From the NCBI GenBank assembly GCA_012517905.1, contig JAAYUE010000061.1, positions 1 through 64,000 of the forward strand: 64,000 bases of DNA, given 5' to 3'. How positions within the stretch are numbered: the stretch's first letter is position 1; each line of letters begins with the position of its first letter. The position numbers and the translations under genes are program-made. Source of the DNA: Clostridiales bacterium. Lineage in GTDB: Bacteria; Bacillota; Clostridia; Christensenellales; CAG-138. The notes under the pieces were generated by a model. That model was not told the origin of the DNA, made no database searches, and saw nothing but the letters and a program-made list of their open reading frames with translations. This document shows, piece by piece, positions 13,952 through 32,962 of this stretch.

Positions 13952-14497
13952 TTAAGCTTCCCCCTCGACGCAGGCCGCGCCGCGCCGCAGCGCCTCGAGA
14001 TTGATCGAGTCCAGCGCCGCCTTCGTTCCGGAAAACATGCGCGAGACGATCTCCCGCACCGTCTTTTGCCTGAGCAGGTTCGTCGCCTTGATGTAGGCGC
14101 CGAGCATCACCATGTTGGCCGTCTTTGTGTTGCCCAGCTCGGCGGCGATGTCAAGGCAGGGCACATAGTATGCCGAGATGTCCTTGCGCGTCGCGGGGAT
14201 ATCGACGATGCTGCTGTTGACAAACACCTTGCCGCCGCCCGCCATGTGCGGCTCAAACCGCAGCAACGAGGGCTTGTTCATGGCGATGAGTTCCGTGGGT
14301 TCCAGCACCATGGGAGAGATGATCTCCTCGCTGCTGAGCACGGCGGAACAGTTCGCGGTGCCGCCGCGCATCTCTGGGCCGTAACTCGGCAGCCAGCTCA
14401 CGTTCAGCCCTTCCTTCAGGCCCGCCTCGGCAAGCAGTTTCCCCATCGCCATCACGCCCTGTCCGCCAAAGCCGGAGATGATGATTTCATGCGTCAT
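13952..14497 (-). CDS. 2-oxoacid:ferredoxin oxidoreductase, gamma subunit
   Basis: Gamma (catalytic-domain) subunit of a four-subunit 2-oxoacid:ferredoxin oxidoreductase, 181 residues. The N-terminus IIISGFGGQGVMAMGKLLAEA and PSYGPEMRGGTANC are hallmarks of the POR/KOR/VOR gamma family. Start at 14497, with GGAGGAG upstream; it overlaps the beta-subunit gene by 11 bases. With the alpha, beta and ferredoxin genes upstream it completes an enzyme converting 2-oxoacid + CoA to acyl-CoA + CO2 with reduction of ferredoxin. The set as a whole looks most like the branched-chain (VOR) type, but 2-oxoglutarate or pyruvate cannot be excluded by eye. Confidence 0.92.
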   Translation of the reverse strand: MTHEIIISGFGGQGVMAMGKLLAEAGLKEGLNVSWLPSYGPEMRGGTANCSAVLSSEEIISPMVLEPTELIAMNKPSLLRFEPHMAGGGKVFVNSSIVDIPATRKDISAYYVPCLDIAAELGNTKTANMVMLGAYIKATNLLRQKTVREIVSRMFSGTKAALDSINLEALRRGAACVEGEA

Positions 14498-15245
14498 GGC
14501 GCCGCTCCTCCATCCTATCGGCATACACGCCGAGCGGAAAATACGGAATCATATGTTCCTTCAGCCAGCCGATCGCGTCCAGCGGCGTAAGCCCCCAATT
14601 GGTCGGGCAGGTCGAGAGAATCTCAACAAACGTGAACCCCGCGCCGGAAAGCTGGAGTTCGAACGCTTTTTTAATCGCTTTTTTCGCCTTGAGGATGTTG
14701 GGCACGTCCGTCAGGGTCACGCGTTCGGCATAGACGCAGCCGTCCAGCGTCGAGAGCAGTTCCGCCATGCGAATCGGCGAGCCGTAGTGCTCCTGTTGCC
14801 GGCCCAGCGGCGCGGTGGTCGCGGTTTGCCCGACCAGCGTGGTCGGCGCCATCTGGCCGCCCGTCATGCCGTAGATCGCGTTGTTGATGAAGATCGTAGT
14901 GATCTTCTCGCCGCGCATGGCCGCATGGACGATCTCCGCGGTGCCGATGGCGGCGAGGTCCCCGTCGCCCTGATAGGTAAACACCGCAAGGTCGGGGTGC
15001 GCGCGCTTGATTCCGGTCGCCACGGCGGGCGCGCGGCCGTGCGCGGCCTCCTGCATGTCGCAGGCGAAGTAATCATAGGCAAACACCGAGCAGCCGACCG
15101 GAGCGATGCCGACGGTGGTGCCGATGATGTCGAGCTCTTCCATCGCTTCGGCGACCAGTTTGTGCGCCACGCCGTGCGTGCAGCCCGGACAATAGTGCGT
15201 CTGCGCGTCAGTTAGCCCTTTGGAGCGCCGGTATACGACGGCCAT
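14487..15245 (-). CDS. 2-oxoacid:ferredoxin oxidoreductase, beta subunit (thiamine-PP binding)
   Basis: The TPP-binding subunit, 252 residues. CPGCTHG (19-25) is the classic start of the domain, and the thiamine-PP motif GDGD...NN is present (YQGDGDLAAIGT to FINNAIYG). GMTGGQMAPTT follows, as in VOR/KOR beta subunits. GAGGAGG about 9 bases before the ATG supports the start even though it overlaps the alpha-subunit gene by 38 bases; the overlap suggests tight translational coupling. Confidence 0.93.
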   Translation of the reverse strand: MAVVYRRSKGLTDAQTHYCPGCTHGVAHKLVAEAMEELDIIGTTVGIAPVGCSVFAYDYFACDMQEAAHGRAPAVATGIKRAHPDLAVFTYQGDGDLAAIGTAEIVHAAMRGEKITTIFINNAIYGMTGGQMAPTTLVGQTATTAPLGRQQEHYGSPIRMAELLSTLDGCVYAERVTLTDVPNILKAKKAIKKAFELQLSGAGFTFVEILSTCPTNWGLTPLDAIGWLKEHMIPYFPLGVYADRMEERRHDA

Positions 15246-16314
15246 GGTTCCATACCTCCTCGATCGCTTTCTGCGCCTCGTCCATCAGCTCGGCAGGCGT
15301 GGGAATCGTTCCGCCGCCCGTGCCGACAAAGCGGACCGGCTTTGCGCCGTTGACGGCGATCTTCACGTCGTCCAGCATCTGCCCCATGCTCATCTCCGCC
15401 GTGACGACGGCCTTCACATTCGTCTGCTGCGCGCAGGCGCGAAGCGCCGCTTCGGGAAACGGCCAGAGCGTAATCGGGCGGAACAGCCCCGCCTTGACGC
15501 CGTCTTTGCGCAGCTTGAGCACGGCCGCATGCGCAACGCGCGCCGTCGTGCCGTAGGAGACAAACAACACCTCCGCGTCGCGGGTCATGAACTCTTCATA
15601 ACGAATTTCGTTTTTCGTGATCAGCTCGTGCTTTTGCTGCAGTTTCCGGTTGAGCGCCGTGCAGTCCTCGGTTTCGATGTAGAGGGAGTTGACGACGTTA
15701 TGCCCGCGTTTTCCCCTCGAACCATCCGTCGCCCAGTCCTTCGGCGGCAGGCTGCGCGGCTTTGGCGAGCGCCACTCAATCGCCTCCATCATCTGCCCAA
15801 TCAGCCCGTCCGCCAGCACCAGCACGGGAATGCGGTATACGTCCGCAATGTCGAAGGCTTCCTGCGTCAGATCCGCCGCCTCCTGAATGGTCGACGGGGC
15901 GAGCACGACGGTGCGATAATCTCCGTTTCCGCCGCCGCGCGTCGCCTGAAAATAGTCCGACTGCGACGGGGCGATGTTGCCGAGGCCCGGGCCGCCGCGC
16001 ATCATGTTGACGATGACGACCGGCAGTTCCGCGCCGGCGATATAGGTGATGCCCTCCTGCTTGAGACTGATGCCCGGCGAGGAGGACGAGGTCATCACGC
16101 GAACGCCGGAGCCCGCCGCGCCGTAGGTCATGTTGATTGCGGCAATCTCGCTCTCCGCCTGCAGAAAGCAGCCGCCGTGCTCCGGCAGATGCCGGGAGAA
16201 ATACTCGGGAATCTCATTTTGCGGCGTGATGGGATAGCCGAAGAAAAAGCGGCAGCCCGCCCGGATTGCGGCCTCCGCGACCGCCTCGTTCCCTTTCCAA
16301 AGCTCTTTTGCCAT
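15208..16314 (-). CDS. vorB: 2-oxoacid:ferredoxin oxidoreductase, alpha subunit (VorB type)
   Basis: The 368-residue alpha subunit with the pyrimidine-binding domain. GCRFFFGYPITPQNEIPEY, VMTSSSSPGISLKQEG and MRGGPGLGNIAPSQSDYFQ follow the pattern of Firmicutes proteins annotated as 3-methyl-2-oxobutanoate dehydrogenase subunit VorB. It sits directly after the ferredoxin-like gene (4-base gap) and before the beta subunit. The VOR reaction links branched 2-oxoacids to isobutyryl-, isovaleryl- and 2-methylbutyryl-CoA, the primers of branched-chain fatty acids, which fits the apparent co-regulation with the fatty acid operon next door. Substrate assignment is by family resemblance. Confidence 0.88.
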   Translation of the reverse strand: MAKELWKGNEAVAEAAIRAGCRFFFGYPITPQNEIPEYFSRHLPEHGGCFLQAESEIAAINMTYGAAGSGVRVMTSSSSPGISLKQEGITYIAGAELPVVIVNMMRGGPGLGNIAPSQSDYFQATRGGGNGDYRTVVLAPSTIQEAADLTQEAFDIADVYRIPVLVLADGLIGQMMEAIEWRSPKPRSLPPKDWATDGSRGKRGHNVVNSLYIETEDCTALNRKLQQKHELITKNEIRYEEFMTRDAEVLFVSYGTTARVAHAAVLKLRKDGVKAGLFRPITLWPFPEAALRACAQQTNVKAVVTAEMSMGQMLDDVKIAVNGAKPVRFVGTGGGTIPTPAELMDEAQKAIEEVWNHGRRIPALQRAN

Positions 16315-16318
16315 CGAT

Positions 16319-16528
16319 TCAAACCCTTTCTACGGTAATCACGCTGTCGGGACACATCCTCGCGCAGCTTGCGCAGGCCGTGCATTCGTCCATGCGCTCA
16401 ACTTCCGCGGGATGATACCCCCTTGCGTTGGTCGCGCCGCTCATGACGATGATGTGCCTGGGGCACACGGCCACGCAAAGCTCGCATCCCTTGCAGCGCT
16501 CCCTCTCAAAACTGACCAACCCTGTCAA
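16319..16528 (-). CDS. Ferredoxin-like 2x[4Fe-4S] subunit (delta)
   Basis: A 69-residue protein with two complete C-x2-C-x2-C-x3-C cluster motifs (CKGCELCVAVCP and CTACASCARMCP), the electron-transfer delta subunit of the oxidoreductase. The reading frame begins with TTG at 16528 with GGGAAG about 10 bases upstream; a second TTG three codons later is also possible. It lies 6 bases after the P-loop gene and 4 bases before vorB, so it is inside the operon. Confidence 0.9.
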   Translation of the reverse strand: MTGLVSFERERCKGCELCVAVCPRHIIVMSGATNARGYHPAEVERMDECTACASCARMCPDSVITVERV

Positions 16529-16534
16529 ACTGAA

Positions 16535-17212
16535 TCACTTCCCTGTCTGTTCGATGTCGGTTTCCCAAGGCTTTTTCATGACGATATCCATGGGAAACAG
16601 CGTTTTCTGCGGCAGTCGCATGCCGCTCGACAGCCTTGCGTCAAAGGCGTGATATTGAATGGGAATGCCGGTCGCGCTCGACAGCGCTTTTGCCAGACGC
16701 GCGCCGCGGCGCACGTCCTCGCGCGTGGTATCCCCGCAGAGATGCGTGTTGTTGACCAGCCCCGTGACGGACAGACGCGCGCTGCGCTCGATTTGCCGGA
16801 GGTAGTCCTCCGCCTTTTCCGGCGTGTTCGTCTCCGGCCGGCTGAAGTTGACCACACAGAGCAGCTCGTGCTCGATGCCGTAAATCCGTTGCGCAAACCG
16901 TCCGAGCACCCGCGCGCCAGCCGGGTCGCCGCCGACGTCCATGACGCCGCAGACGCCGCGTTCCAGCAGGGCGCTCACCTCCGGATTGACCGCAGGCACA
17001 TCCGCGCCGCCGCCGCAGGGCAGCACGACGCGTACGCCGCGCGCTGTGAGTCTGCCTTTTTGCTCGCGGGAGCAGAAATATGGATTGACGATATCGAGAT
17101 CGGCCAGCAAGGGCGTAAGTCCGGCGTCGGCAAACGAAAGCGCAAGGTTGACCGCAAACTCGGTCTTGCCGCTGCCGTAATGGCCTGTTATGATATGCAG
17201 ATGATCTTCCAT
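16535..17212 (-). CDS. P-loop NTPase (MinD/CobQ-like) in the VOR operon
   Basis: A 225-residue ATP-binding protein of the SIMIBI/MinD-like type. P-loop ITGHYGSGKTE lies at the very N-terminus, a switch-like DLDIVNPYFCSRE follows at about 35-47, and DVGGDPAGARVLG resembles a Walker B region. Start at 17212 places the first strand directly before the P-loop as in relatives; no start has a good Shine-Dalgarno, and in-frame ATGs at 17272 and 17308 would add low-complexity residues. First gene of the VOR operon behind the 17349-17377 promoter. Its job is unknown; a maturation, assembly or regulatory role for the oxidoreductase is a guess from context. Confidence 0.72.
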   Translation of the reverse strand: MEDHLHIITGHYGSGKTEFAVNLALSFADAGLTPLLADLDIVNPYFCSREQKGRLTARGVRVVLPCGGGADVPAVNPEVSALLERGVCGVMDVGGDPAGARVLGRFAQRIYGIEHELLCVVNFSRPETNTPEKAEDYLRQIERSARLSVTGLVNNTHLCGDTTREDVRRGARLAKALSSATGIPIQYHAFDARLSSGMRLPQKTLFPMDIVMKKPWETDIEQTGK

Positions 17213-17325: not shown

Positions 17326-17340
17326 GTTAGCACTACTAAC
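17326..17340. promoter_or_regulatory. Operator copy 1 (VOR operon), GTTAG-N5-CTAAC
   Basis: GTTAGCACTACTAAC, extended to AGTTAG...CTAACT at 17325-17341. It begins 8 bases downstream of the VOR -10 element and so covers the predicted transcription start, the usual place for a repressor site. Nearly identical to the copy at 18205-18219; I found no third copy by eye. Confidence 0.72.
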
Positions 17341-17348
17341 TTTTTCGC

Positions 17349-17377
17349 ATTATACAGCAGCTTTTTCAACTTTTCAA
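17349..17377 (-). promoter_or_regulatory. Promoter of the VOR operon
   Basis: Minus-strand TTGAAA (17372-17377), 17-base spacer, perfect TATAAT (17349-17354). Transcription should start near 17342, at the edge of the operator. Confidence 0.75.
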
Positions 17378-17435
17378 CAACAAATTCCCTCGCGGGATCG
17401 CTTCCCCTGCGCGCCCGTTACCGCCGCGGGGTGGG

Positions 17436-17481
17436 TTTTCAATTGAAAATGAATATGCTATGCTTTTGTTCGTAGTACGAA
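17436..17481 (+). promoter_or_regulatory. Probable MarR-gene promoter with two palindromes
   Basis: Perfect palindrome TTTTCAATTGAAAA (17436-17449) contains a possible -35 (TTTTCA); 17 bases on is an extended -10, TGC-TATGCT (17456-17464). The predicted start falls in a second perfect palindrome, TTCGTAGTACGAA (17469-17481). Either palindrome could be an autoregulatory site; neither matches the GTTAG/CTAAC operator. Confidence 0.45.
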
Positions 17482-17519
17482 TCGATTACGCCCGCCCAGC
17501 GACGAAAGGAGACGGAAGG

Positions 17520-17969
17520 ATGAACGATCAGGAGATCGAAGCCCTGCTCAACCAAGCCCTCAAAGACATGTTTTACAGCGTGCTGCGCCTGCAGGAAAAG
17601 AGCGTGTCCAAGCTCGCAAAAGGCAACGTCAGCCGCACGGAGATGCACACGCTTGAAATCGTTCAGGACATCCCGGACGCGACGCTCACGCAGATTGCCG
17701 AGATGCTGGGCATTACAAAAGCGACGGCAAGCGTTTCCATCAACCGCCTGGTAGAGAAAGGGTTTCTCATCAAGGCGCAGGAGAGCGAGGACAAGCGCAA
17801 GCAGATCCTTCGCCTGACCGAGGCGGGCGATGCGCTCTGCAAGAAGCACACGCAGTTTCACGACATGCTCATCCACAGCGTCATGCGCGAATTCAACGTC
17901 TCCGAATACCCGGAGGTGCTCAAATCCCTGCAGGCGCTCGTGAACTTTTTCAACTGTCTGCGCGTGTAG
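17520..17969 (+). CDS. MarR-family regulator, probable FabT-like controller of lipid synthesis
   Basis: A 149-residue winged-helix MarR protein. DNA-binding region at about 60-105: ATLTQIAEMLGITKATASVSINRLVEKGFL, then the wing with SEDKRKQILRLTEAG. Start chosen at 17520 because AAGGAG lies 9 bases upstream. It lies between two copies of one inverted repeat, one at the VOR promoter and one at the fatty acid promoter directly downstream. In streptococci and relatives the MarR protein FabT sits at the head of the fab cluster and represses it, so a FabT-like role is likely here. The ligand (acyl-ACP, acyl-CoA) is unknown. Confidence 0.85.
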   Translation: MNDQEIEALLNQALKDMFYSVLRLQEKSVSKLAKGNVSRTEMHTLEIVQDIPDATLTQIAEMLGITKATASVSINRLVEKGFLIKAQESEDKRKQILRLTEAGDALCKKHTQFHDMLIHSVMREFNVSEYPEVLKSLQALVNFFNCLRV

Positions 17970-18162
17970 CCTTCGCTGCATAGAAATCGCATAGCGCGCA
18001 TGAATATCCAACCTCGAAAAGCCCCGTCCGGCAAAAAGCGCGGCGCCCGCCGCGTCCGGTCAGGCGGCGGCGGACCATATTGCGCCGCCGCTTGCTGAAT
18101 AAATGCACTGACATTTCAATTTCTGTCGATTTCAATTCCATTTTCGCCTCGCCCGAGCGGTC

Positions 18163-18191
18163 TTGACAAGGAAAACAAGCCGTGCTATCAT
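18163..18191 (+). promoter_or_regulatory. Promoter of the fatty acid synthesis operon
   Basis: TTGACA (18163-18168), 17-base spacer, TATCAT (18186-18191). Start expected near 18198, giving a leader of about 65 bases before accB. Confidence 0.78.
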
Positions 18192-18204
18192 TCTGCGCAT
18201 GATT

Positions 18205-18219
18205 GTTAGCACTGCTAAC
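18205..18219. promoter_or_regulatory. Operator copy 2 (fatty acid operon)
   Basis: GTTAGCACTGCTAAC, a perfect inverted repeat around the central C, 13 bases after the -10 element (about +8 to +22). It differs from the copy at 17326-17340 at one base. Likely binding site of the MarR-family protein encoded between the two copies. Confidence 0.72.
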
Positions 18220-18264
18220 CATGTGCCGGCGAATTTGTATTTTCATACGAAAAGGAACCGCAGA

Positions 18265-18684
18265 ATGGATTTGGAAGCGATCTTCAAGCTCATGGACCGG
18301 GTGGAAAAATCTTCCTTTACCCGGGTCGAAATAGAATCGAACGGACTGCGCGTCGCGCTGGAGCGCAGCGCTTCGGCGCGCGCGGCCGAACCCGCCGAGG
18401 CGGAGGCAAGCGCGGCGTCCGCGCCCGCCGGACAGGACGAAACAAACGCGGTCCGCTCGCCGATCTCCGGCGTGTTTTACCCCGCGCGGGAACCCGGTTC
18501 GGAGCCCTTCGTCTCTTTAGGCGCCCGCGTTGAAAAGGGCGACACGCTCTGCATCATCGAGGCGATGAAGACCATGAACGAGATCCGCTCCCCGAAATCC
18601 GGCGTGATCGCGGCAATCCTTGCCGAAGACGGCGCGACGGTCGCCTCCGGCGACACGCTCTTTCTGCTGAGCGAAGGAAACTGA
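18265..18684 (+). CDS. accB: Biotin carboxyl carrier protein of acetyl-CoA carboxylase
   Basis: A 139-residue BCCP, carrying the biotin that shuttles CO2 in acetyl-CoA carboxylase. The C-terminal half is a biotinyl domain with the attachment motif EAMKTMNE (Lys102); an Ala/Glu-rich linker (36-60) joins it to the N-terminal part. AAAGGA before 18265 supports the start. First gene of the eleven-gene operon; one base separates it from accC. In many Firmicutes accB sits next to fabZ, so its leading position here is a rearrangement of the usual order. Confidence 0.95.
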   Translation: MDLEAIFKLMDRVEKSSFTRVEIESNGLRVALERSASARAAEPAEAEASAASAPAGQDETNAVRSPISGVFYPAREPGSEPFVSLGARVEKGDTLCIIEAMKTMNEIRSPKSGVIAAILAEDGATVASGDTLFLLSEGN

Positions 18685-18685
18685 C

Positions 18686-20047
18686 ATGCAGACGGTACTC
18701 GTGGCAAATCGCGGGGAGATCGCCGTGCGCATCATCCGCACCTGTAAAAAACTGGGACTTCGGACGGTTGCGGTCTATTCGGAAAACGACGAGCGCAGCC
18801 TGCCTGTCCGCCTTGCGGACGAGAGCGTCTGCATCGGCCCGCGCCCCGCGGAAAAAAGCTATCTCAATATCGATACGATCCTCGCGGCGGCGAAAGCCTA
18901 CCGCGCGGACCTTCTCCATCCCGGCGTCGGCTTCCTTTCGGAAAACGACGCGTTTGCCGCGGCCTGCGCCGAGGCGGGCGTCGTATTCATCGGCCCCGCG
19001 CCGGAGACCATGCGCATGCTCGGGGACAAAGAGGCCGCGCGCAGGGTCATGCTCGCAAACGGCTTCCCCGTCGTCCCCGGTTCGGACGGAACGGTGGAGA
19101 GCCTGAAAGAGGCGCTCAGCGTCGCGCGGACCATCGGTTACCCGCTCATGATCAAGGCCGCCAAGGGCGGCGGCGGCAAGGGCATCCGCATCGTCGAGGA
19201 CGCGGCGGCGCTCGAAAGAGAGCTTCCGCTCGTGCGGCGCGAGGCGCAGCAGGCGTTTGGCGACGGGGGCGTATATCTCGAGGCGTACATGCCCGAGTCG
19301 CGGCATATCGAGGTGCAGATCCTCGCGGACACGCACGGCAACGTGCTGCATCTGGGCACGCGCGAATGCACGCTCCAGCGAAAGAACCAGAAGCTCATCG
19401 AGGAAGCGCCGGCTGCAAACGTACCCGCCGAAACCATCTGTGCCATCGAACAGACCGCGGTGGACATCGCCCGCGCGGTCGGGTACCAGAACGCAGGCAC
19501 CGTCGAATTCCTTCTGTCAAAGGACGGGCGGTTTTTCTTCATGGAGATGAACGCGCGCATTCAGGTGGAGCATCCGGTTACGGAGAGCATCTACGGCCTC
19601 GACCTCGTCAAGGCGCAGATTCAGGTTGCGCTGGGTCACCATCTGCGCGTGCCGCAGGAAAGCCTGGTCCCGCGCGGACACGCCATCGAGTGCCGCATCA
19701 ACGCGGAGTGCCCGGCCGAACAGTTCCGCCCCTCCCCGGGCGTGCTTTCCGGCGTGTCTCTGCCCGGCGGATACGGCGTCCGCATCGACAGCGGCTATGC
19801 CGTCGGGGACGAAATTTCGCCCTATTACGACTCCATGGTGCTCAAGCTCGTCGCACACGCGGACGACCGCGAGGAGGCCATTCGCCTCTGCTCGGCCGCG
19901 CTGACCGAGCTCGTCATCGACGGAATCGAACACAACGCCGATTTTGCGCGCGCCATGCTGGCGGACGCGGATTTCCGCGCCGGAATTGCGCATACCAAGT
20001 GGATCGAACAGACCTTCCTTCCGCGTTATCTGAGAGGACGGCCATGA
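18686..20047 (+). CDS. accC: Biotin carboxylase subunit of acetyl-CoA carboxylase
   Basis: A 453-residue ATP-grasp enzyme that carboxylates the biotin of AccB using bicarbonate and ATP. N-terminal VLVANRGEIAVRIIRTCKKLG, the glycine-rich loop KAAKGGGGKGIR (about 154-165), and MEMNARIQVEHPVTE (about 287-301) are all present. Length is normal. The stop overlaps the accD start as ATGA (20044-20047). Confidence 0.97.
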   Translation: MQTVLVANRGEIAVRIIRTCKKLGLRTVAVYSENDERSLPVRLADESVCIGPRPAEKSYLNIDTILAAAKAYRADLLHPGVGFLSENDAFAAACAEAGVVFIGPAPETMRMLGDKEAARRVMLANGFPVVPGSDGTVESLKEALSVARTIGYPLMIKAAKGGGGKGIRIVEDAAALERELPLVRREAQQAFGDGGVYLEAYMPESRHIEVQILADTHGNVLHLGTRECTLQRKNQKLIEEAPAANVPAETICAIEQTAVDIARAVGYQNAGTVEFLLSKDGRFFFMEMNARIQVEHPVTESIYGLDLVKAQIQVALGHHLRVPQESLVPRGHAIECRINAECPAEQFRPSPGVLSGVSLPGGYGVRIDSGYAVGDEISPYYDSMVLKLVAHADDREEAIRLCSAALTELVIDGIEHNADFARAMLADADFRAGIAHTKWIEQTFLPRYLRGRP

Positions 20048-20913
20048 ATCTTTTTTCGGAACAAATCGAACACGAATCCGCCGCCGGGCGCGCAGAGGCG
20101 ACCGGCATGCTCGACATGCTGCGCTGCGCGCGCTGCGGGCGCGACCTCGTCGCGGAGGTCGTGCTTGCGGGGGACGCGGCCTGCCCGTATTGCGGCAGCC
20201 TCTTTCGCCAGCCCGCGTATCGCCGCATCGAGGCGATCGTGGACAGCGGCAGTTTCATCGAAATCGAGCGCGAGGCGGAGCCGGGCGACCCGCTGTCGTT
20301 TCCGGGCTATCGCACGAAGCTCGAAAAAGAGCAGGAAAAGTCCAAGATGCAGGAAGGCGTGGTCATCGGCAAGGCGACCATCAAGGGCCTGCGCACCGCG
20401 CTCGCGGTCATGGACAGCTATTTCATGATGGGCAGCATGGGCACCGTGGTCGGCGAAAAAATCGTCATCCTCGCGGAGTTTGCACTGCATAACCGCCTGC
20501 CGCTCGTGATCTTCTGCGCCTCCGGCGGCGCGCGCATGCAGGAGGGCGTGCTCTCGCTCATGCAGATGTCGCGCACGACCATCGCGCTCGCGCGACACAG
20601 CGCGGCGGGCCTGCTGCACATCAACGTGCTCACGCACCCGACCACGGGCGGCGTGACCGCGAGCTTTGCCATGCAGGGGGACATCACGCTCGCCGAGCCC
20701 GGCGCGCTGATCGGCTTTGCCGGCCCGCGCGTGATCGAGCAGACCGTGCGGGACAAGCTGCCGGAAGGGTTTCAGACGGCGGAGTATCTCTACGCCCACG
20801 GGTTGATCGACCGCATCGTGGACCGCAGGGACCTGCGCGAAACGCTCGCGTCCCTGCTGGCGCTGCACAATATCGAGCGCGCGGCCGTTCCCGAAAAGGA
20901 GGGACGCGGATGA
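20044..20913 (+). CDS. accD: Acetyl-CoA carboxylase carboxyltransferase, beta subunit
   Basis: A 289-residue carboxyltransferase subunit transferring CO2 from biotin to acetyl-CoA. The N-terminal zinc ribbon is intact (CARCGRDL ... CPYCG), and the crotonase-like core has CASGGARMQEG and TTGGVTASFAMQGD. Start at 20044 overlaps accC by four bases; the frame is open further upstream but without start signals. Followed by accA with another ATGA overlap, so the two carboxyltransferase subunits are made together. Confidence 0.96.
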   Translation: MNLFSEQIEHESAAGRAEATGMLDMLRCARCGRDLVAEVVLAGDAACPYCGSLFRQPAYRRIEAIVDSGSFIEIEREAEPGDPLSFPGYRTKLEKEQEKSKMQEGVVIGKATIKGLRTALAVMDSYFMMGSMGTVVGEKIVILAEFALHNRLPLVIFCASGGARMQEGVLSLMQMSRTTIALARHSAAGLLHINVLTHPTTGGVTASFAMQGDITLAEPGALIGFAGPRVIEQTVRDKLPEGFQTAEYLYAHGLIDRIVDRRDLRETLASLLALHNIERAAVPEKEGRG

Positions 20914-21722
20914 TTCGGAAGGATTCGGACGCCCAGCCCGCCTGGGAGCGCGTCATGAACGCGCGCAAGGAAGACCGCCCGCAGGCGCGCGACTATATCG
21001 AAAAGCTCTTTCACGGCGTATTCGAGGTGCGCGGCGACCAGTGCATGGGCGACGACGAAGCGATCGTCACCGCCGTGGCATGGTTTGAAACATACCCCGT
21101 CACCGTCATCGGCCAGCAGAAAGGCCACACGCTCGAAGAGCGCATGCGCTGCAACTTCGGCATGCCCTCCCCCGAGGGCTATCGAAAGTCCATGCGCGCG
21201 CTCAGACAGGCGGAGAAGTTCAATCGCCCCGTGATCTGCCTCGTGGACACGCCCGGCGCGTTCTGCGGCGTGGAGGCGGAGGCAAAAGGTCAGGGCCGCG
21301 TCATCGCGGAGCATCTGCGTGCCATGGCGACGGTGAAAACGCCCTGCATCTCGATCATCATCGGCGAAGGGGGCAGCGGCGGCGCGCTGGCGCTCTCGCT
21401 TGCCGACCGGCTGATCATGCTCGAAAACAGCTATTTTTCCGTGATTTCGCCCGAGGGCGCGGCGTCCATCCTGTTTAAGGACAGCTCGCTTGCCTCCGAG
21501 GCGGCAAAAAATCTGAAACTCACGGCGGGAGACCTCAAGCGCTTCGGCATCGTGGACGGCATCATCCGCGAACCGCAGGGCTACTCTCGCTTCCATATGG
21601 ACGAGAGCGCGGAGGCGGTGAAAAAAGCCATTCGCGGCGCGCTCAAGCGGCTGAGCCACATCCCGCCCGATCGGCTGGTGGAACAGCGGCAGCAAAAATA
21701 CTTGAATATGAGGTGGTACTGA
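20910..21722 (+). CDS. accA: Acetyl-CoA carboxylase carboxyltransferase, alpha subunit
   Basis: A 270-residue alpha carboxyltransferase subunit. GMPSPEGYRKSMRALRQAEKF, LVDTPGAFCG and IGEGGSGGALAL are typical of AccA, with oxyanion-hole glycines in the last motif. It lacks the longer N-terminal helical region of the E. coli protein (319 residues), as is common in Firmicutes. One base separates it from fabH. Confidence 0.96.
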   Translation: MIRKDSDAQPAWERVMNARKEDRPQARDYIEKLFHGVFEVRGDQCMGDDEAIVTAVAWFETYPVTVIGQQKGHTLEERMRCNFGMPSPEGYRKSMRALRQAEKFNRPVICLVDTPGAFCGVEAEAKGQGRVIAEHLRAMATVKTPCISIIIGEGGSGGALALSLADRLIMLENSYFSVISPEGAASILFKDSSLASEAAKNLKLTAGDLKRFGIVDGIIREPQGYSRFHMDESAEAVKKAIRGALKRLSHIPPDRLVEQRQQKYLNMRWY

Positions 21723-21723
21723 A

Positions 21724-22716
21724 ATGCTGGCACCGGTAACGATCGCAGGCGTCGCAAAATGCGTGCCCGAACGGGTGGTCACAAACTTCGATCTCGAATC
21801 CATCGTGGAGACGAGCGACGAATGGATCGCGAAACGCACGGGTATCCGCTCGCGGCACGTTGTCATCGGCGAAACGGGTGTCGGCATGGCCTGTCAGGCC
21901 GCCGGGGATGCGCTCGCCATGTCCGGCGTGCGGGTCGAAGACGTCGGCGTCATCGTCGCCTGCACGATTACGGGCGAGGACCTGACCCCGTCCCTGGCGG
22001 GCAGCGTGCAGAAAGCGCTCGGCATCCCCGTCTGCGCGGCGCTGGACGTCTCCGCCGGCTGCACGGGCTTTATCTACGCGCTCGTCACGGCGGCTTCGCT
22101 CATGGACACGCTGCAAAAGGACGCGGCCATCGTGGTCGCCAGCGAGGTGATGACGAAGTATCTGGACTGGACGGACCGCTCCACCTGCGTGCTCTTTGGC
22201 GACGGCGCGGGCGCGCTGGTGCTCAGGCGCAGTGAAACCGCGCACCTGCTCTGCCCCATCCTCTCCGCAACGCCGGATACGGACGACGTGATCACGGTCC
22301 GAAAGGAAGCGCGCACAACGCCGTTTACCGGTCCTGCCGAGGAAATCGGCAGCTTCATCCGAATGAAGGGCGCGGACGTGTTCACCTACGCCGTCGGCGT
22401 GATGGAACAGACGCTTTTGCAGTTGTCGGGGGCATGCCCGGACCATCCGTATACAAAGGTCGTCCCCCATCAGGCGAACGAGAAGATCATCGATTTTGTC
22501 GTGCGCACCATGGGCCTGAGCCGGGAACAATTTTTCGTGAACATTTCGAACTATGCCAATACATCCTCCGCCTCGATTCCGATCGCCCTGAGCGACGCAT
22601 GGGAGTCCGGCTGGCTGCGCGCGGGAGACCGCGTCGCGCTCGTCGGCTTCGGCTCCGGGCTGACCAGCGGCGGCGCGATGATCGATTGGACATTACCAAA
22701 CAAAAAGGAGAACTGA
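21724..22716 (+). CDS. fabH: 3-oxoacyl-ACP synthase III
   Basis: Initiating condensing enzyme, joining an acyl-CoA primer to malonyl-ACP; 330 residues. Catalytic triad: Cys113 in SAGCTGF, His249 in VPHQAN, Asn279 in YANTSSAS. FabH decides whether straight (acetyl-CoA) or branched (isobutyryl-CoA and similar) primers are used, the point at which the neighbouring VOR operon could feed in. Primer choice cannot be read safely from the sequence. Confidence 0.97.
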   Translation: MLAPVTIAGVAKCVPERVVTNFDLESIVETSDEWIAKRTGIRSRHVVIGETGVGMACQAAGDALAMSGVRVEDVGVIVACTITGEDLTPSLAGSVQKALGIPVCAALDVSAGCTGFIYALVTAASLMDTLQKDAAIVVASEVMTKYLDWTDRSTCVLFGDGAGALVLRRSETAHLLCPILSATPDTDDVITVRKEARTTPFTGPAEEIGSFIRMKGADVFTYAVGVMEQTLLQLSGACPDHPYTKVVPHQANEKIIDFVVRTMGLSREQFFVNISNYANTSSASIPIALSDAWESGWLRAGDRVALVGFGSGLTSGGAMIDWTLPNKKEN

Positions 22717-22719
22717 ATC

Positions 22720-22947
22720 ATGCAGGAAAAGATTATTGAAACATTGATGTCCCAGCTGGACCTCGACCGCGATGCGATTACGATGGAGAGTCGCTTTATC
22801 GAAGATTTCTCCATGGACTCGCTCGATATGGTCGAGATGCTCATCAACCTCGAAAAAGAGACCGGCATCAAGGTCCCCGTCGAGGAAGTCGGCGACATCC
22901 ACACCGTCGGCGAGCTCATCAAACATCTCGAAGGAAAGCAGCAATGA
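22720..22947 (+). CDS. acpP: Acyl carrier protein
   Basis: A 75-residue acidic ACP. The phosphopantetheine site is Ser34 in DFSMDSLDMVEM. AAAGGAGAAC precedes the ATG. Located between fabH and fabK as in many Firmicutes; the stop overlaps fabK as ATGA. Confidence 0.97.
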   Translation: MQEKIIETLMSQLDLDRDAITMESRFIEDFSMDSLDMVEMLINLEKETGIKVPVEEVGDIHTVGELIKHLEGKQQ

Positions 22948-23906
22948 GATACCCCGGCACCATCTGCGCGCTGACGGGCACGCAATATCCGCTGATCCAG
23001 GGCGGCATGGCATGGGTTTCGGACGCAAGTCTGGCCGCCGCCGTGTCGATGGCGGGCGGACTCGGCGTCATCGCCGCGGGCAACGCCCCGCCGGACTGGG
23101 TGGAGCGGCAGGTGACCGAGCTTCGCGCAAAGACGGACAAACCCTTCGGCCTGAACGTCATGCTGCTCAGCCCTTATGTGGCGCAGGTTGCGGAGCTGGC
23201 CGCGGACCTTCATGTGCCTGTGGTCATCACGGGTGCGGGCAATCCGGACGCATACGTCAAGCGCTGGAAAGCGGCCGGCTGTCTGGTTGCGCCCGTCGTG
23301 GCGAGCCGCGCGCTGGCGATGCTCATGGAGCGCATGGGCGCGGATTTCGTCATTGCGGAAGGCTGCGAGGCGGGCGGACACATCGGCGAGCTGACCTCCA
23401 TGGTGCTCTGGCCGGACATCGCGCGCAGCGTATCCATCCCCGTCGTAGCGGCGGGCGGCGTCTTCGACGCAAGCGGCGTCGCGGCGGCGTTCTGTCTCGG
23501 CGCAAAGGGCGTCCAGGTCGGCACGCGGTTCATCCTCGCCGAGGAGTGCACCGCGCACGAGGCGTATAAGGAGCGCGTGCTGCGCGCCAAGGACATCGAC
23601 AGCAAGGTGACGGGCCGCATCACGGGCCATCCCGTGCGCGTGCTCAGAAGCCCCCTGCAGCGGGAGCTTGCAACCGCGGAATACGGGCCGGACGGCGCGG
23701 CGGCCGTGGAAAAACTCGGCGAAGGATCGCTCATGCGCGCCGTGCTGCACGGCGACAAGGACCGCGGCTCCTTTATGGCGGGCCAGTGCGCCTGCATGAT
23801 GGACCGCATCCAGCCCGCCGAAGCAATCGTCAGGGAACTCTTCGACGCGGAGCTGATCGTCCGGGCGCTTTCCGGCGCATCGGCAATGTTGGAGGCAAAC
23901 GAATGA
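22944..23906 (+). CDS. fabK: Enoyl-ACP reductase II (FMN-dependent)
   Basis: A 320-residue flavoprotein of the nitronate monooxygenase/FabK fold performing the last reduction of each elongation cycle. Family marks: YPLIQGGMAWVSD, GGLGVIAAGN, AEGCEAGGHIG, VVAAGGVFDASGVAAA and GVQVGTRF. No fabI is seen in the window, so this is probably the working enoyl reductase, implying natural triclosan tolerance of the pathway. ATGA overlaps at both ends. Confidence 0.95.
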   Translation: MRYPGTICALTGTQYPLIQGGMAWVSDASLAAAVSMAGGLGVIAAGNAPPDWVERQVTELRAKTDKPFGLNVMLLSPYVAQVAELAADLHVPVVITGAGNPDAYVKRWKAAGCLVAPVVASRALAMLMERMGADFVIAEGCEAGGHIGELTSMVLWPDIARSVSIPVVAAGGVFDASGVAAAFCLGAKGVQVGTRFILAEECTAHEAYKERVLRAKDIDSKVTGRITGHPVRVLRSPLQRELATAEYGPDGAAAVEKLGEGSLMRAVLHGDKDRGSFMAGQCACMMDRIQPAEAIVRELFDAELIVRALSGASAMLEANE

Positions 23907-24832
23907 AGACGGCTTTTCTATTTCCCGGGCAGGGCGCGCAGTCGCCCGGCATGGGGTCGGACTTATATCTATCATATAGCCGTTATCGCGACACCTTCGA
24001 CCGCTGCGAAGCGGAAGCCGGGCTGGACCTCAAGTCCGCCTGTTTCAACGGCGAGGGCATGGACGGCAGCGACGTGATCCAGGCCGCAATCTATACGCAC
24101 TCCGTATCGACGCTGCGCGCGCTTGAGGCCGAGGGCGTCGGTGCGGACGTGTTCGCGGGGCTTTCGCTCGGCGAATATGCCGCGCTGTGCGCCGCGGGCG
24201 TGTTTCCGGACGCGCGGGGCGCGCACATCGTGCTTAGGCGCGGCGCGCTCATGGACGGCGCGGTGCCTCCCGGCACGGGCGGCATGCTCTCCGTCATCGG
24301 GCTGACGCTGGAACAGGTCGAGCCGGTGATCGCCGCGTTTGGCAACGTTTATCTGTCCAACCATCTCGCCGAAACGCAGCTCGTGCTCGGCGGCCTGCTG
24401 GACGAACTGGACTTAGTCAAACCGCTGCTGGACGGCGCGGGCGCGCGCATGACGACGATGCTCGCCATGAAAGGCCCGTCGCACTGTCCCCTGCTCGACG
24501 ATGCGGCCAAGCAATTCGGCGCGGAGCTTTCGGGTGAAGCGCTCGGGCGCCCGTCCCGAACGGTCTACAGCAATGTGCTCGGCGCGCCGTATCCGGCGGA
24601 TGCGGACGTCGCCGCGCTGCTCTGCGCGCAGATGAACACGCGCGTGCGCTGGCACGACTGCGTGGAGGACATGCTCGGCAGCGGCGTCACCCGCTTTGTG
24701 GAGATCGGACCCGGCGGCGTGTTGACCAAGATGCTCAAGCGGCGCGCGGGACGCGACGTCTCTCTCTACAGCGTGCAGGACGCGGCCTCGATGGAGGCGT
24801 TTCTCCACGCATATGAGGGGGACCGCGCATGA
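23903..24832 (+). CDS. fabD: Malonyl-CoA:ACP transacylase
   Basis: A 309-residue transacylase loading malonate onto ACP. PGQGAQ near the N-terminus, GLSLGEY with nucleophile Ser88, and GPSHCPLL with catalytic His194. Start at 23903 overlaps fabK as ATGA. Slightly unusual is Ser-His-Cys where most FabD have Phe-His-Thr/Ser. Confidence 0.95.
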   Translation: MKTAFLFPGQGAQSPGMGSDLYLSYSRYRDTFDRCEAEAGLDLKSACFNGEGMDGSDVIQAAIYTHSVSTLRALEAEGVGADVFAGLSLGEYAALCAAGVFPDARGAHIVLRRGALMDGAVPPGTGGMLSVIGLTLEQVEPVIAAFGNVYLSNHLAETQLVLGGLLDELDLVKPLLDGAGARMTTMLAMKGPSHCPLLDDAAKQFGAELSGEALGRPSRTVYSNVLGAPYPADADVAALLCAQMNTRVRWHDCVEDMLGSGVTRFVEIGPGGVLTKMLKRRAGRDVSLYSVQDAASMEAFLHAYEGDRA

Positions 24833-25563
24833 GCAAAGTCGCGCTGGTCACCGGCGGCTCCGGCGGCATCGGCCGCGCGGTCTGCCTGCGCCTTGCGCAG
24901 GAGGGCTTCGACGTCGCCGTGCACTACAACAGCAACGCGGAGGGCGCAGTGCGCGTCTGCCGCGAAATCGAGGCGCTGGGGCGGCGCGCCGCCGCGCTCG
25001 GCGCGGATCTGAGCGACTCCGCCGCATGCGCGGAACTGATACAGGGCTGCGTCGAGCGCCTCGGCGGGTTGGACGCGCTCGTCAACAACGCGGGCGTCAC
25101 CTGCGACGCGCTGATGATGCGCATGACGGACGAGCAGTATCACAAAGTGCTCCGCGCCAACCTCGACAGCTGCTTTTACTGCACGCGCGAGGCGATAAAC
25201 CATATGGCGCGCGAAAAGCGCGGCAAGATCGTCAGCGTCACGTCCGTGGTCGGCCTGACCGGCAACGCGGGACAGGCGAACTACGCCGCGTCCAAAGCGG
25301 GCATCGTGGGGTTGACCAAGTCCGCCGCAAAGGAAGTCGCCCGCTGGGGCATCTGCGTCAACGCAGTCGCCCCCGGGTTCATCGAGACGGCCATGACCGA
25401 AAAGCTGAACGACGTTGCGAGGGACGCGCTGAAAAAGAGCATCCCCATGCGACGCATCGGCAGCCCGGAGGACGTCGCCGCCATGGTCGCGTTCCTTTGC
25501 TCCGACGGGGCGGGATACGTCACCGGTCAGGTGTTCGTCGTGGACGGCGGCATGGCGATGTAG
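24829..25563 (+). CDS. fabG: 3-oxoacyl-ACP reductase
   Basis: A 244-residue short-chain dehydrogenase reducing 3-oxoacyl-ACP with NADPH. Cofactor loop TGGSGGIG (8-15), NNAG (86-89), catalytic Ser139, Tyr152 and Lys156 (YAASK). C-terminal GQVFVVDGGMAM is standard. ATGA overlap with fabD. Confidence 0.96.
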   Translation: MSKVALVTGGSGGIGRAVCLRLAQEGFDVAVHYNSNAEGAVRVCREIEALGRRAAALGADLSDSAACAELIQGCVERLGGLDALVNNAGVTCDALMMRMTDEQYHKVLRANLDSCFYCTREAINHMAREKRGKIVSVTSVVGLTGNAGQANYAASKAGIVGLTKSAAKEVARWGICVNAVAPGFIETAMTEKLNDVARDALKKSIPMRRIGSPEDVAAMVAFLCSDGAGYVTGQVFVVDGGMAM

Positions 25564-25592
25564 TGTTTTGTATCGATCAAGGAGGATAGGAT

Positions 25593-26825
<1,233 letters not shown>

Positions 26826-26832
26826 GACAATC

Positions 26833-27276
26833 GTGGAATCCATCGGTATCGAACAAATCAAGCGCATCCTGCCGCATCGCGAGCCGTTTTTGATGGTGGA
26901 TCGCGTGGACGAGCTCACGCCCGGCGTATCCGCAAAGGGCGTGAAAGCCGTCTCGGCAAACGAGTGGTTCTTTCAGGGACATTTCGCGGAAACAAAAGTG
27001 ATGCCCGGCGTGCTGATCGTTGAAGCGCTCGCGCAGGCGGGCGGCATCGCGCTGCTCACGCAGGAGGCCATGCGCGGCAAGCTCGCGTTTCTCGGCAAGC
27101 TCACCAACGCGCGCTTCTACGCGCCTGTCGTCCCCGGCGATCTGCTGGAGCTGGACTCGCGCATCGACGCGGTCAACGGCAGCGTCGGCAAGGGCGTGGG
27201 CACCGCCACCGTGCGCGGCAAAAAGGTCGCGACCTGCGAATTCGTGTTCGCGCTGAAAGACCCTTCCGAGCTCTGA
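26833..27276 (+). CDS. fabZ: 3-hydroxyacyl-ACP dehydratase
   Basis: A 147-residue hot-dog-fold dehydratase. ILPHREPFLMVDRV, catalytic His50 in FFQGHF and Glu64 in PGVLIVEALAQ are present. Start is GTG at 26833 with GGGAGG about 10 bases upstream; there is no ATG in a suitable place. Last gene of the operon, followed by a terminator. Confidence 0.95.
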   Translation: MESIGIEQIKRILPHREPFLMVDRVDELTPGVSAKGVKAVSANEWFFQGHFAETKVMPGVLIVEALAQAGGIALLTQEAMRGKLAFLGKLTNARFYAPVVPGDLLELDSRIDAVNGSVGKGVGTATVRGKKVATCEFVFALKDPSEL

Positions 27277-31810: not shown

Positions 31811-32962
31811 ATGCGGCAAACAAAACGGCGCTCCATCCATATTCCGGGCGGAACGAGCATCCTCGCCTCGCTGATCTCCATCGGCATTGGCCTCGTCTTC
31901 GGGCTCATCCTGCTCGTCATTCTCAACACGAAAGCCGCAGGCGGCGCGTTTGTCAGCCTCGTTACGACGGGGTTCCGCTCCAGCGACAAATTCGCAAAGG
32001 TGCTCTATCAGGCCGCGCCGCTGATCATGACTGGACTTTCGGTGGGGTTTGCGTTCAAGACCGGCCTGTTCAACATCGGCGCGACCGGCCAGTATACCGT
32101 CGGCGCGGCGTTCGCGCTCATCGGCGCGATTCAGTTCCAGCTGCCCTGGTATGTGTGCGTACTGCTCTCGCTCATCGGCGGCGCGTTCTGGGGCGTATTC
32201 CCCGGCCTCTTCAAGGCGCTGTTCAACGTCAACGAGGTCATCACGTCGATCATGTTTAACTGGATTGCGATGTTCGCGGTCAACCTGACCATCAACAACC
32301 TCCCCATGATGCTGGCAAAGTACTGGGGCGGCGCGCAGATGGACCGCACCGCAAACCTCGCGCAGGCAAACCCCAGCGCGCTGATTCCGCGGCTCGGGCT
32401 CGATACGCTCATGCACAGCAACTACATGAACATCAGCATCTTCATCGCGGTCATCTTCGCCCTCATCGCGTGGGTTATTCTGAGCAAGACCACCTTCGGC
32501 TACGAGCTGAAGGCATGCGGCTATAACCGCAATGCCAGCCTCTACGCGGGCATCAACGCCAAGCGGAACATCGTGTTTTCCATGGTGATCGCGGGCGCGT
32601 TCGCCGGCGTCGGCGGCGGCCTCTACTTCCTCGCCGGAACGGGCCAGTATACGCTGCTCAAGCAGCTGCTTGCGGCGGGCTTCAACGGCATCCCCGTCGC
32701 GCTGCTTGCCACGTCCAACCCCATCGGCACGATCTTCTCGGCGTTCTTCGTCTCCTATATACAGGTCGGCGGCGACGCGATGCAGCCGGACTTCGTCAAG
32801 GAGATCATCGACATCATCATTTCGGTCATCATCTACCTCGCCGCGTTTGCGCTGCTGACGCGCGAACTGCTTTCGCGCAGCAAGATGCATCGGGAGGAAG
32901 AGGCCGAATCCGTCGCGTCCGCAGACGCACCCGCAGAGAAAGAAGAGGTGAGTCAGTCATGA
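31811..32962 (+). CDS. Nucleoside ABC importer, permease 1
   Basis: A 383-residue permease of the BPD_transp_2 family (YufP-like), with about ten membrane helices. GLSVGFAFKTGLFNIGATGQYTVGAA is the family mark. The C-terminus is an acidic cytoplasmic tail. Start at 31811, one base after the ATPase stop; AAAGGA is about 13 bases upstream. The stop overlaps the second permease as ATGA. Confidence 0.9.
   Translation: MRQTKRRSIHIPGGTSILASLISIGIGLVFGLILLVILNTKAAGGAFVSLVTTGFRSSDKFAKVLYQAAPLIMTGLSVGFAFKTGLFNIGATGQYTVGAAFALIGAIQFQLPWYVCVLLSLIGGAFWGVFPGLFKALFNVNEVITSIMFNWIAMFAVNLTINNLPMMLAKYWGGAQMDRTANLAQANPSALIPRLGLDTLMHSNYMNISIFIAVIFALIAWVILSKTTFGYELKACGYNRNASLYAGINAKRNIVFSMVIAGAFAGVGGGLYFLAGTGQYTLLKQLLAAGFNGIPVALLATSNPIGTIFSAFFVSYIQVGGDAMQPDFVKEIIDIIISVIIYLAAFALLTRELLSRSKMHREEEAESVASADAPAEKEEVSQS

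Follow-up and report, generated by a model that had tools for sequence, protein, structure and literature searches.

In the window analysed here, a 64,000-nucleotide stretch of a Clostridiales genome, a gene for a MarR-family regulator lies between a minus-strand operon for a VOR-type 2-oxoacid:ferredoxin oxidoreductase and a plus-strand operon of acc and fab genes. The first-pass annotation of this DNA noticed the same inverted repeat before both operons and proposed that the MarR protein is a FabT-like repressor that controls them jointly. The locus thus raises the question of whether fatty acid synthesis and the oxidoreductase are under one switch, whether the arrangement holds where the two operons lie apart, and what the oxidoreductase would supply.

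Palindromes at three predicted promoters

Both 15-bp palindromes described by the first-pass annotation are present in the window sequence, GTTAGCACTACTAAC at 17326-17340 and GTTAGCACTGCTAAC at 18205-18219, and the near-consensus boxes that it placed before them, TTGAAA-17-TATAAT on the minus strand and TTGACA-17-TATCAT on the plus strand, are there as well (Table 1). At up to three mismatches the window holds five matches against 0.78 expected, a number reached in none of 100 shuffles; each palindrome counts twice among them, once per strand, and the one remaining match, at 32845, has three mismatches. A search by eye had yielded no third copy, but there is one: the variant GTTCGTAGTACGAAT at 17468-17482, upstream of the MarR gene and 52 bp before its start codon. 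In each half-site its fourth base differs from that of the pair, so that a search by eye misses it. With the -10-like boxes placed by eye, the palindromes follow them at 13 bp (acc/fab), 8 bp (VOR) and about 3 bp (marR, where the box, also read by eye, is a weak TATGCT). Overlapping or closely following the likely start point, the sites are placed in a way that suggests that a bound dimer would block RNA polymerase.

Two other repeats lie nearby. A perfect 14-bp palindrome, TTTTCAATTGAAAA, at 17438-17451 upstream of the regulator gene was not seen at the equivalent place in six relatives compared by eye, and an imperfect inverted repeat, TTTTCATACGAAAA, is found in the accB leader at 18240-18253.

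The first-pass annotation had also raised the possibility that the motif occurs in many random copies. We scanned the genome from which the window comes (G000; 2,987,991 bases in 84 contigs, 93.8% complete) with GTTAGCANTGCTAAC, and only the two window palindromes lie within one mismatch; the remaining places, among the matches listed, all have three mismatches.

Table 1. Predicted genes, promoters and operators at the regulator locus, in window coordinates
Feature	Position	Strand	Basis or remark
Gamma subunit (called VorC here)	13952..14524	-	Domain and NCBIfam search
Thiamine-diphosphate subunit (called VorA here)	14487..15245	-	Domain and NCBIfam search
VorB	15208..16314	-	NF005507, 528 bits, cut-off 399
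Small ferredoxin-like subunit	16319..16528	-	Cysteine motifs by eye
P-loop ATPase-like protein	16535..17212	-	Opens the VOR operon; CbiA match weak, under the cut-off; start codon picked by similarity
VOR operon operator (predicted), GTTAGTAGTGCTAAC	17326..17340	-	8 bp after the -10 box
VOR promoter, TTGAAA (17377-17372), 17 bp, TATAAT (17354-17349)	17349..17377	-	Consensus match only
Variant operator (predicted) at the regulator's own promoter, GTTCGTAGTACGAAT	17468..17482	+	In 7/7 genus genomes with the gene, a similar site 50-52 bp upstream of the start codon
FabT-type MarR-family regulator, 149 aa	17520..17969	+	Pfam, NCBIfam, PDB sequence and fold matches
acc/fab promoter, TTGACA (18163-18168), 17 bp, TATCAT (18186-18191)	18163..18191	+	Consensus match only; similar in relatives
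acc/fab operon operator (predicted), GTTAGCACTGCTAAC	18205..18219	+	13 bp downstream of the -10 box; position shared by 7/7 genus genomes with the locus
acc/fab operon: accB accC accD accA fabH acpP fabK fabD fabG fabF fabZ	18265..27276	+	NCBIfam and domain matches

The regulator and its likeness to FabT

The regulator scores over the Pfam MarR cut-off, and its best NCBIfam match is FabT at 89.9 bits, with the next family at 47.3. Because this score is below the NCBIfam equivalog cut-off for FabT (NF050133, 200 bits), we speak of a FabT-type protein and not of FabT. Its best PDB match is 6jbx, the FabT-DNA structure of S. pneumoniae, both by sequence (E 7e-16) and by fold (TM 0.87 with an AlphaFold model of the regulator, pLDDT 90). 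These matches agree with the first-pass description of the protein as FabT-like, and it is likely a FabT-type repressor. In the window and in six genus-mates the regulator gene adjoins a type II fatty acid synthesis cluster, with acc genes next to it; the downstream set is complete to fabZ in five of these six, and in the sixth, G098, the contig stops in accD. Within the window cluster, accB, acpP, fabK and fabD score under their NCBIfam equivalog cut-offs, and fabD is matched best by the malonate decarboxylase MdcH (228.8 bits), its own family coming second (216.3 bits).

FabT of S. pneumoniae, E. faecalis and L. lactis has the same MarR fold, a gene at the fatty acid operon, and palindromes at the fab promoters and its own (PMC9083066). 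Its consensus is given as ANTTTGACTGTNAAATT (PMC8406281), a TTTGA-N3-TNAAA dyad, and it has the frame TTNG-N5-CNAA in common with the window site; the fourth base of the half-site is T in FabT but A in the window pair and C at the regulator's own promoter. The first-pass statement that the published FabT site is different therefore holds for one base of the half-site, but not for the dyad frame, which is the same. The frame is also found within 150 bp at 17 of 25 promoters of more distant FabT-type genes in the order, as compared with a mean of 1.6 and a maximum of 6 in 500 rounds of dinucleotide shuffling of those promoters. These more distant genes precede fabH in many loci, whereas the window regulator precedes accB.

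Sites across the genus

We compared eight genomes of the genus (G000 and G092-G098). The regulator or an orthologue (78-81% identical) is present in seven of them, and none was found in G097, which is 73% complete. For a blind test, a pattern was built from the window pair only and allowed one mismatch. In the seven genus-mates it finds eight sites in seven promoters, namely four before accB, three before VOR (two of them in one promoter) and one before lipA, while the reversed-pattern control gives seven matches. A generalised pattern, GTTMGYANTRCKAAC, was drawn after the sites of the relatives were known, so that its counts are descriptive: across the eight genomes it matches exactly at 15 places, 14 of which precede accB or VOR, while at up to one mismatch it has 46 matches against 106 for the reversed control. 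Raw site counts are not above the reversed control, and only placement is non-random. It is this placement, and not abundance, that rules out random repeats.

The acc/fab promoter carries the site in all seven genus genomes with the locus (six exact to the generalised pattern, G093 with one mismatch), and the regulator's own promoter does so in all seven with the gene, each time at one mismatch. Upstream of accB, G096 has two operator-like sites 70 bp apart (L106 10776-10860) and the other genus genomes have one. In G095, accC is in two overlapping pieces in different frames (L105 5815-7163), due to a frameshift or an assembly error.

A site-bearing VOR operon is found in six of the eight genomes (G000, G092, G093, G094, G097 and G098), with two sites 61 to 79 bp apart in each of the five other than G000. 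In those same five genomes this VOR lies apart from the fab genes: G093 has the two on one contig but 94 kb apart, in G092, G094 and G098 they are on separate contigs, and in G097 VOR is on an 8.7-kb contig that has no fab genes. Since VOR retains its sites in these genomes, the link between sites and VOR is not a side effect of neighbourhood, and conservation due only to the two promoters adjoining, as they do in the window, can be dismissed. The repeats are thus kept in relatives at both operons, even where these are apart, which is the conservation that the first-pass annotation had asked for.

Not every VOR operon in the genus is marked in this way. There are 16 VorB matches, of which two (on C16 of G000 and C320 of G098) are cut by a contig end and were left out of the upstream count. 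Among the 14 operons with a readable upstream 400 bp, six have a site at zero or one mismatch and eight have nothing better than three mismatches. No site is seen at any of the three VORs of G096 or at the single VOR of G095 (59% complete), and weak two-mismatch matches lie farther off in the loci L091 and L093. The joint control of fab and VOR that was first proposed is supported in the genus in that the site marks both operons, but many other VOR operons are without it.

A near match in G000, at C22:8518, lies upstream of lipA and was retained as a likely target. In G000 (GTTAATAGTACTAAC) and G093 (GTTAGCAGTGCAAAC) a site directly precedes the start codon of lipA-lplA. These are two of the three genus genomes where lipA was found; lipA of the third, G098, is without a site. 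We take lipA-lplA as a likely fourth target of the regulator. The precursor of lipoate, octanoyl-ACP, is itself a product of fatty acid synthesis. Two other places in G000 were taken as chance: C75:46197, which is exact to the generalised pattern and by our own reading lies inside a reading frame, and the near match C39:28405, in the end of a gene that we take from its sequence to be Asp23-like. Further matches lie at C2:92664 and C2:26368 in G093.

The oxidoreductase and its subfamilies

We call the enzyme VOR-type on the score of VorB together with the thiamine-diphosphate, gamma and ferredoxin-like subunits. VorB is over the VorB cut-off and far under those of the pyruvate synthase families; the small ferredoxin-like subunit matches no NCBIfam family. 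A P-loop protein like the one that opens the window operon accompanies many, but not all, VOR operons.

In a maximum-likelihood tree of 22 VorBs, in which six of the 19 inner branches are well supported and two branches are very long, the window VorB falls in class A, the VorBs behind two sites fall in class B, and that of G106, a genome of another family, lies elsewhere. Site-bearing VorBs thus occupy three places in the tree, and explaining which VorBs have a site takes three changes; all may be gains, or a single gain may have been followed by losses. In relatives, class A VORs that lack a site follow a butyrate kinase, identified by profile match in G093 and by eye in G092, G094 and G095. 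A second VOR of G000, also of class A, lies at one end of contig C16 (vorB, vorA and vorC, then a branched-chain aminotransferase directly after them; L082), and the end of contig C34 (L176) holds a butyrate kinase (69% identical), a P-loop protein and part of a ferredoxin gene. C34 probably precedes C16, so that this second locus would be split over two contig ends. No class B VorB was found in G000 at E <= 1e-40. To judge by the tree, the window VOR is an extra class A copy under a predicted operator.

Four class B promoters (L086, L088, L099 and L100) show, by eye, two sites 74-79 bp apart, and after the second site a promoter-like TTGAA..TATGAT that has no site of its own.

The neighbours of related operons, namely the butyrate kinases and branched-chain aminotransferases, the latter also found two genes after the class B VOR of G093 (one of three class B loci looked at), hint at a branched-chain 2-oxoacid as the substrate, and the enzyme most likely makes acyl-CoA primers for FabH. 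VOR as the sole route to acyl-CoA is unsupported, and it need not be the only source, because an E1 of the lipoate-type 2-oxoacid dehydrogenase (E < 1e-30) is present in six of the eight genus genomes, G000 included.

Sites beyond the genus

Among 95 other genomes of the family, the window pattern gives six matches, none of them near a homologue of the 11 tested window genes (up to 1.5 kb on each side). In an order sample of 396 genomes, exact GTTAGYASTRCTAAC occurs at nine places in seven genomes, as compared with 14 for the reversed control, and eight of the nine precede accB or VOR. Close relatives of the regulator, taken at E <= 1e-44 (a threshold picked in a gap after the scores had been seen), occur in eight genomes of the sample, and six of the seven are among these eight; the Fisher p of 3.8e-11 for this association overstates independence, as the genomes are related. 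In the seventh genome, G131, the match lies inside a gene that we read as DnaC-like, and it was set aside as chance.

Three genomes of another family (G187, G204 and G169) have the site before accB, and in the latter two it is kept though the regulator gene is on a different contig. Looser copies precede accB in G148, G106 and G145; in G106, where the regulator gene and accB diverge, the copy is in the interval between them, and the VOR of this genome is preceded by GTTAGCGGTACTAAC. An own-promoter site was not seen in G148, G187, G204 or G169. Of six VOR operons outside the genus with a readable upstream region, five are without a site, one of these five having been read over 190 bp only, and at the VorB matches of L152 and L153 nothing lies within two mismatches in the fetched stretch.

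Some further copies are weak leads that we do not count as targets. In G145 a DegV/FakB-like gene, possibly for fatty acid binding, lies behind GTTAGTAGTACTAAT (L160), and a yhbY-nadD-like region is another such lead; in G187 a FabK-like gene lies behind GTTAGTACATCTAAC (L158), and the same 15-mer on the other strand precedes accB in G148. The DegV/FakB-like and FabK-like genes are single cases.

Discussion

A conserved regulatory link between the fab genes and VOR is well supported by the comparison of genomes. Because the same palindrome stands before the fab genes, the regulator and, in most genomes of the genus, a VOR operon, one repressor likely tunes the supply of building blocks and membrane synthesis together. 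We think it probable, with some reserve, that a FabT-type repressor co-represses fatty acid synthesis and a VOR that supplies branched acyl-CoA primers, with acyl-ACP as the co-repressor. The regulator would bind palindromes like GTTAGYASTRCTAAC at three predicted promoters, those of its own gene, the acc/fab operon and the VOR operon, close behind the -10-like box in each case, and a bound dimer would repress transcription by blocking RNA polymerase at or near the start point. Acyl-ACP enhances the binding of FabT (PMC9083066); if the same is assumed here, the three promoters would be shut together when acyl-ACP builds up. VOR would run from branched-chain 2-oxoacids to acyl-CoA and so feed primers to FabH, and one switch would set how much membrane fatty acid is made and of what kind.

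That the MarR-family protein encoded at 17520-17969 is the one that binds these sites is something we infer from the company they keep, and another regulator could own them instead. There are, after all, four MarR-family matches in G000, this protein included, and half-sites of the TTAGC type are common in the MarR family; in G097, moreover, a VOR carries the site and the assembly, 73% complete, yielded no orthologue of the regulator. We regard another owner as very improbable, given that the sites go with close relatives of the regulator in six of seven genomes, that the regulator's own promoter has a site in seven of seven genus genomes, and that the dyad frame is kept before more distant FabT-type genes well beyond the shuffled expectation (17 of 25 against a mean of 1.6).

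The role of VOR leaves more room for alternatives. Enzymes of this kind are often promiscuous, and the regulator might bind all the sites while VOR serves acetyl-CoA or electron supply, converting pyruvate (or 2-oxobutyrate) to acetyl-CoA (or propionyl-CoA) with reduced ferredoxin. Co-regulation with acetyl-CoA carboxylase (accBCDA) would fit such a role, and in Clostridium thermocellum Pfor4 together with Pfor1 accounts for most Pfor activity (PMC13011478). With VorB over its own family cut-off and far under those of the pyruvate synthases, and with branched-chain aminotransferase and butyrate kinase genes adjoining some of its relatives, we consider acetyl-CoA supply unlikely. It is also conceivable that VOR works in breakdown or in reverse, from acyl-CoA to 2-oxoacid, and is controlled along with fab so that branched acyl-CoA is not drained during membrane synthesis. 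The window VOR is class A by sequence, and class A relatives lie behind a butyrate kinase, an acid-forming enzyme, which would suit breakdown. But the site-bearing copies are not those behind butyrate kinase: over the 400 bp that precede the P-loop gene, no site is seen at the class A VORs of G092, G093, G094 and G095, and the 17-19 kb fetched for them hold nothing within two mismatches, bar a weak match in G094 some 3 kb off (L091 14616). In addition, the operators stand close behind the -10-like box at VOR as they do at fab, and control in the same direction is therefore suggested. Breakdown or reversal seems to us improbable, less likely still than acetyl-CoA supply.

Repression of scattered lipid-synthesis promoters by a single protein has a known counterpart in FapR, the repressor of fatty acid synthesis in Bacillus and Staphylococcus. 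FapR differs in belonging to an unrelated protein family, in responding to malonyl-CoA and in having another operator. The predicted regulon differs from that of FabT in the addition of a 2-oxoacid:ferredoxin oxidoreductase and likely of lipA-lplA. The available text of PMC9083066 and PMC8406281, from the FabT regulon literature, names no VOR target of FabT, and among the matches listed from the open-licence literature none connects a 2-oxoacid:ferredoxin oxidoreductase with FabT or with an operator of the FabT type. PMC4478896, in the portion available, names FabT and cites work on ketoisovalerate oxidoreductase, but draws no link between them.

For the enzyme, the nearest likeness is to Pfor4 of C. 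thermocellum, a four-gene ferredoxin-linked 2-oxoacid oxidoreductase that replaces Bkd in making branched-chain primers and is also annotated as a ketoisovalerate ferredoxin-dependent reductase (PMC13011478); we compare it with the window VOR by kind of enzyme and not by sequence. Deletion of pfor4 all but abolishes branched-chain fatty acids, so that a ferredoxin-linked enzyme was shown in 2026 to make such primers; the available text of that paper gives no regulator for Pfor4 and does not mention FabT (PMC13011478).

The locus described here offers a predicted regulatory counterpart to the C. thermocellum primer enzyme, complete with exact operators. It predicts that membrane branching and fatty acid output would be under one switch. 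It also yields a 15-base motif that can be searched for, and it shows one kind of operator before different VOR subfamilies. More tentatively, and short of what we would call probable, we propose that in this uncultured anaerobic lineage a FabT-type repressor governs both primer supply and elongation, and in some species lipoate synthesis too, and that selection may have preserved control over different VOR subfamilies rather than any one lineage of the enzyme.
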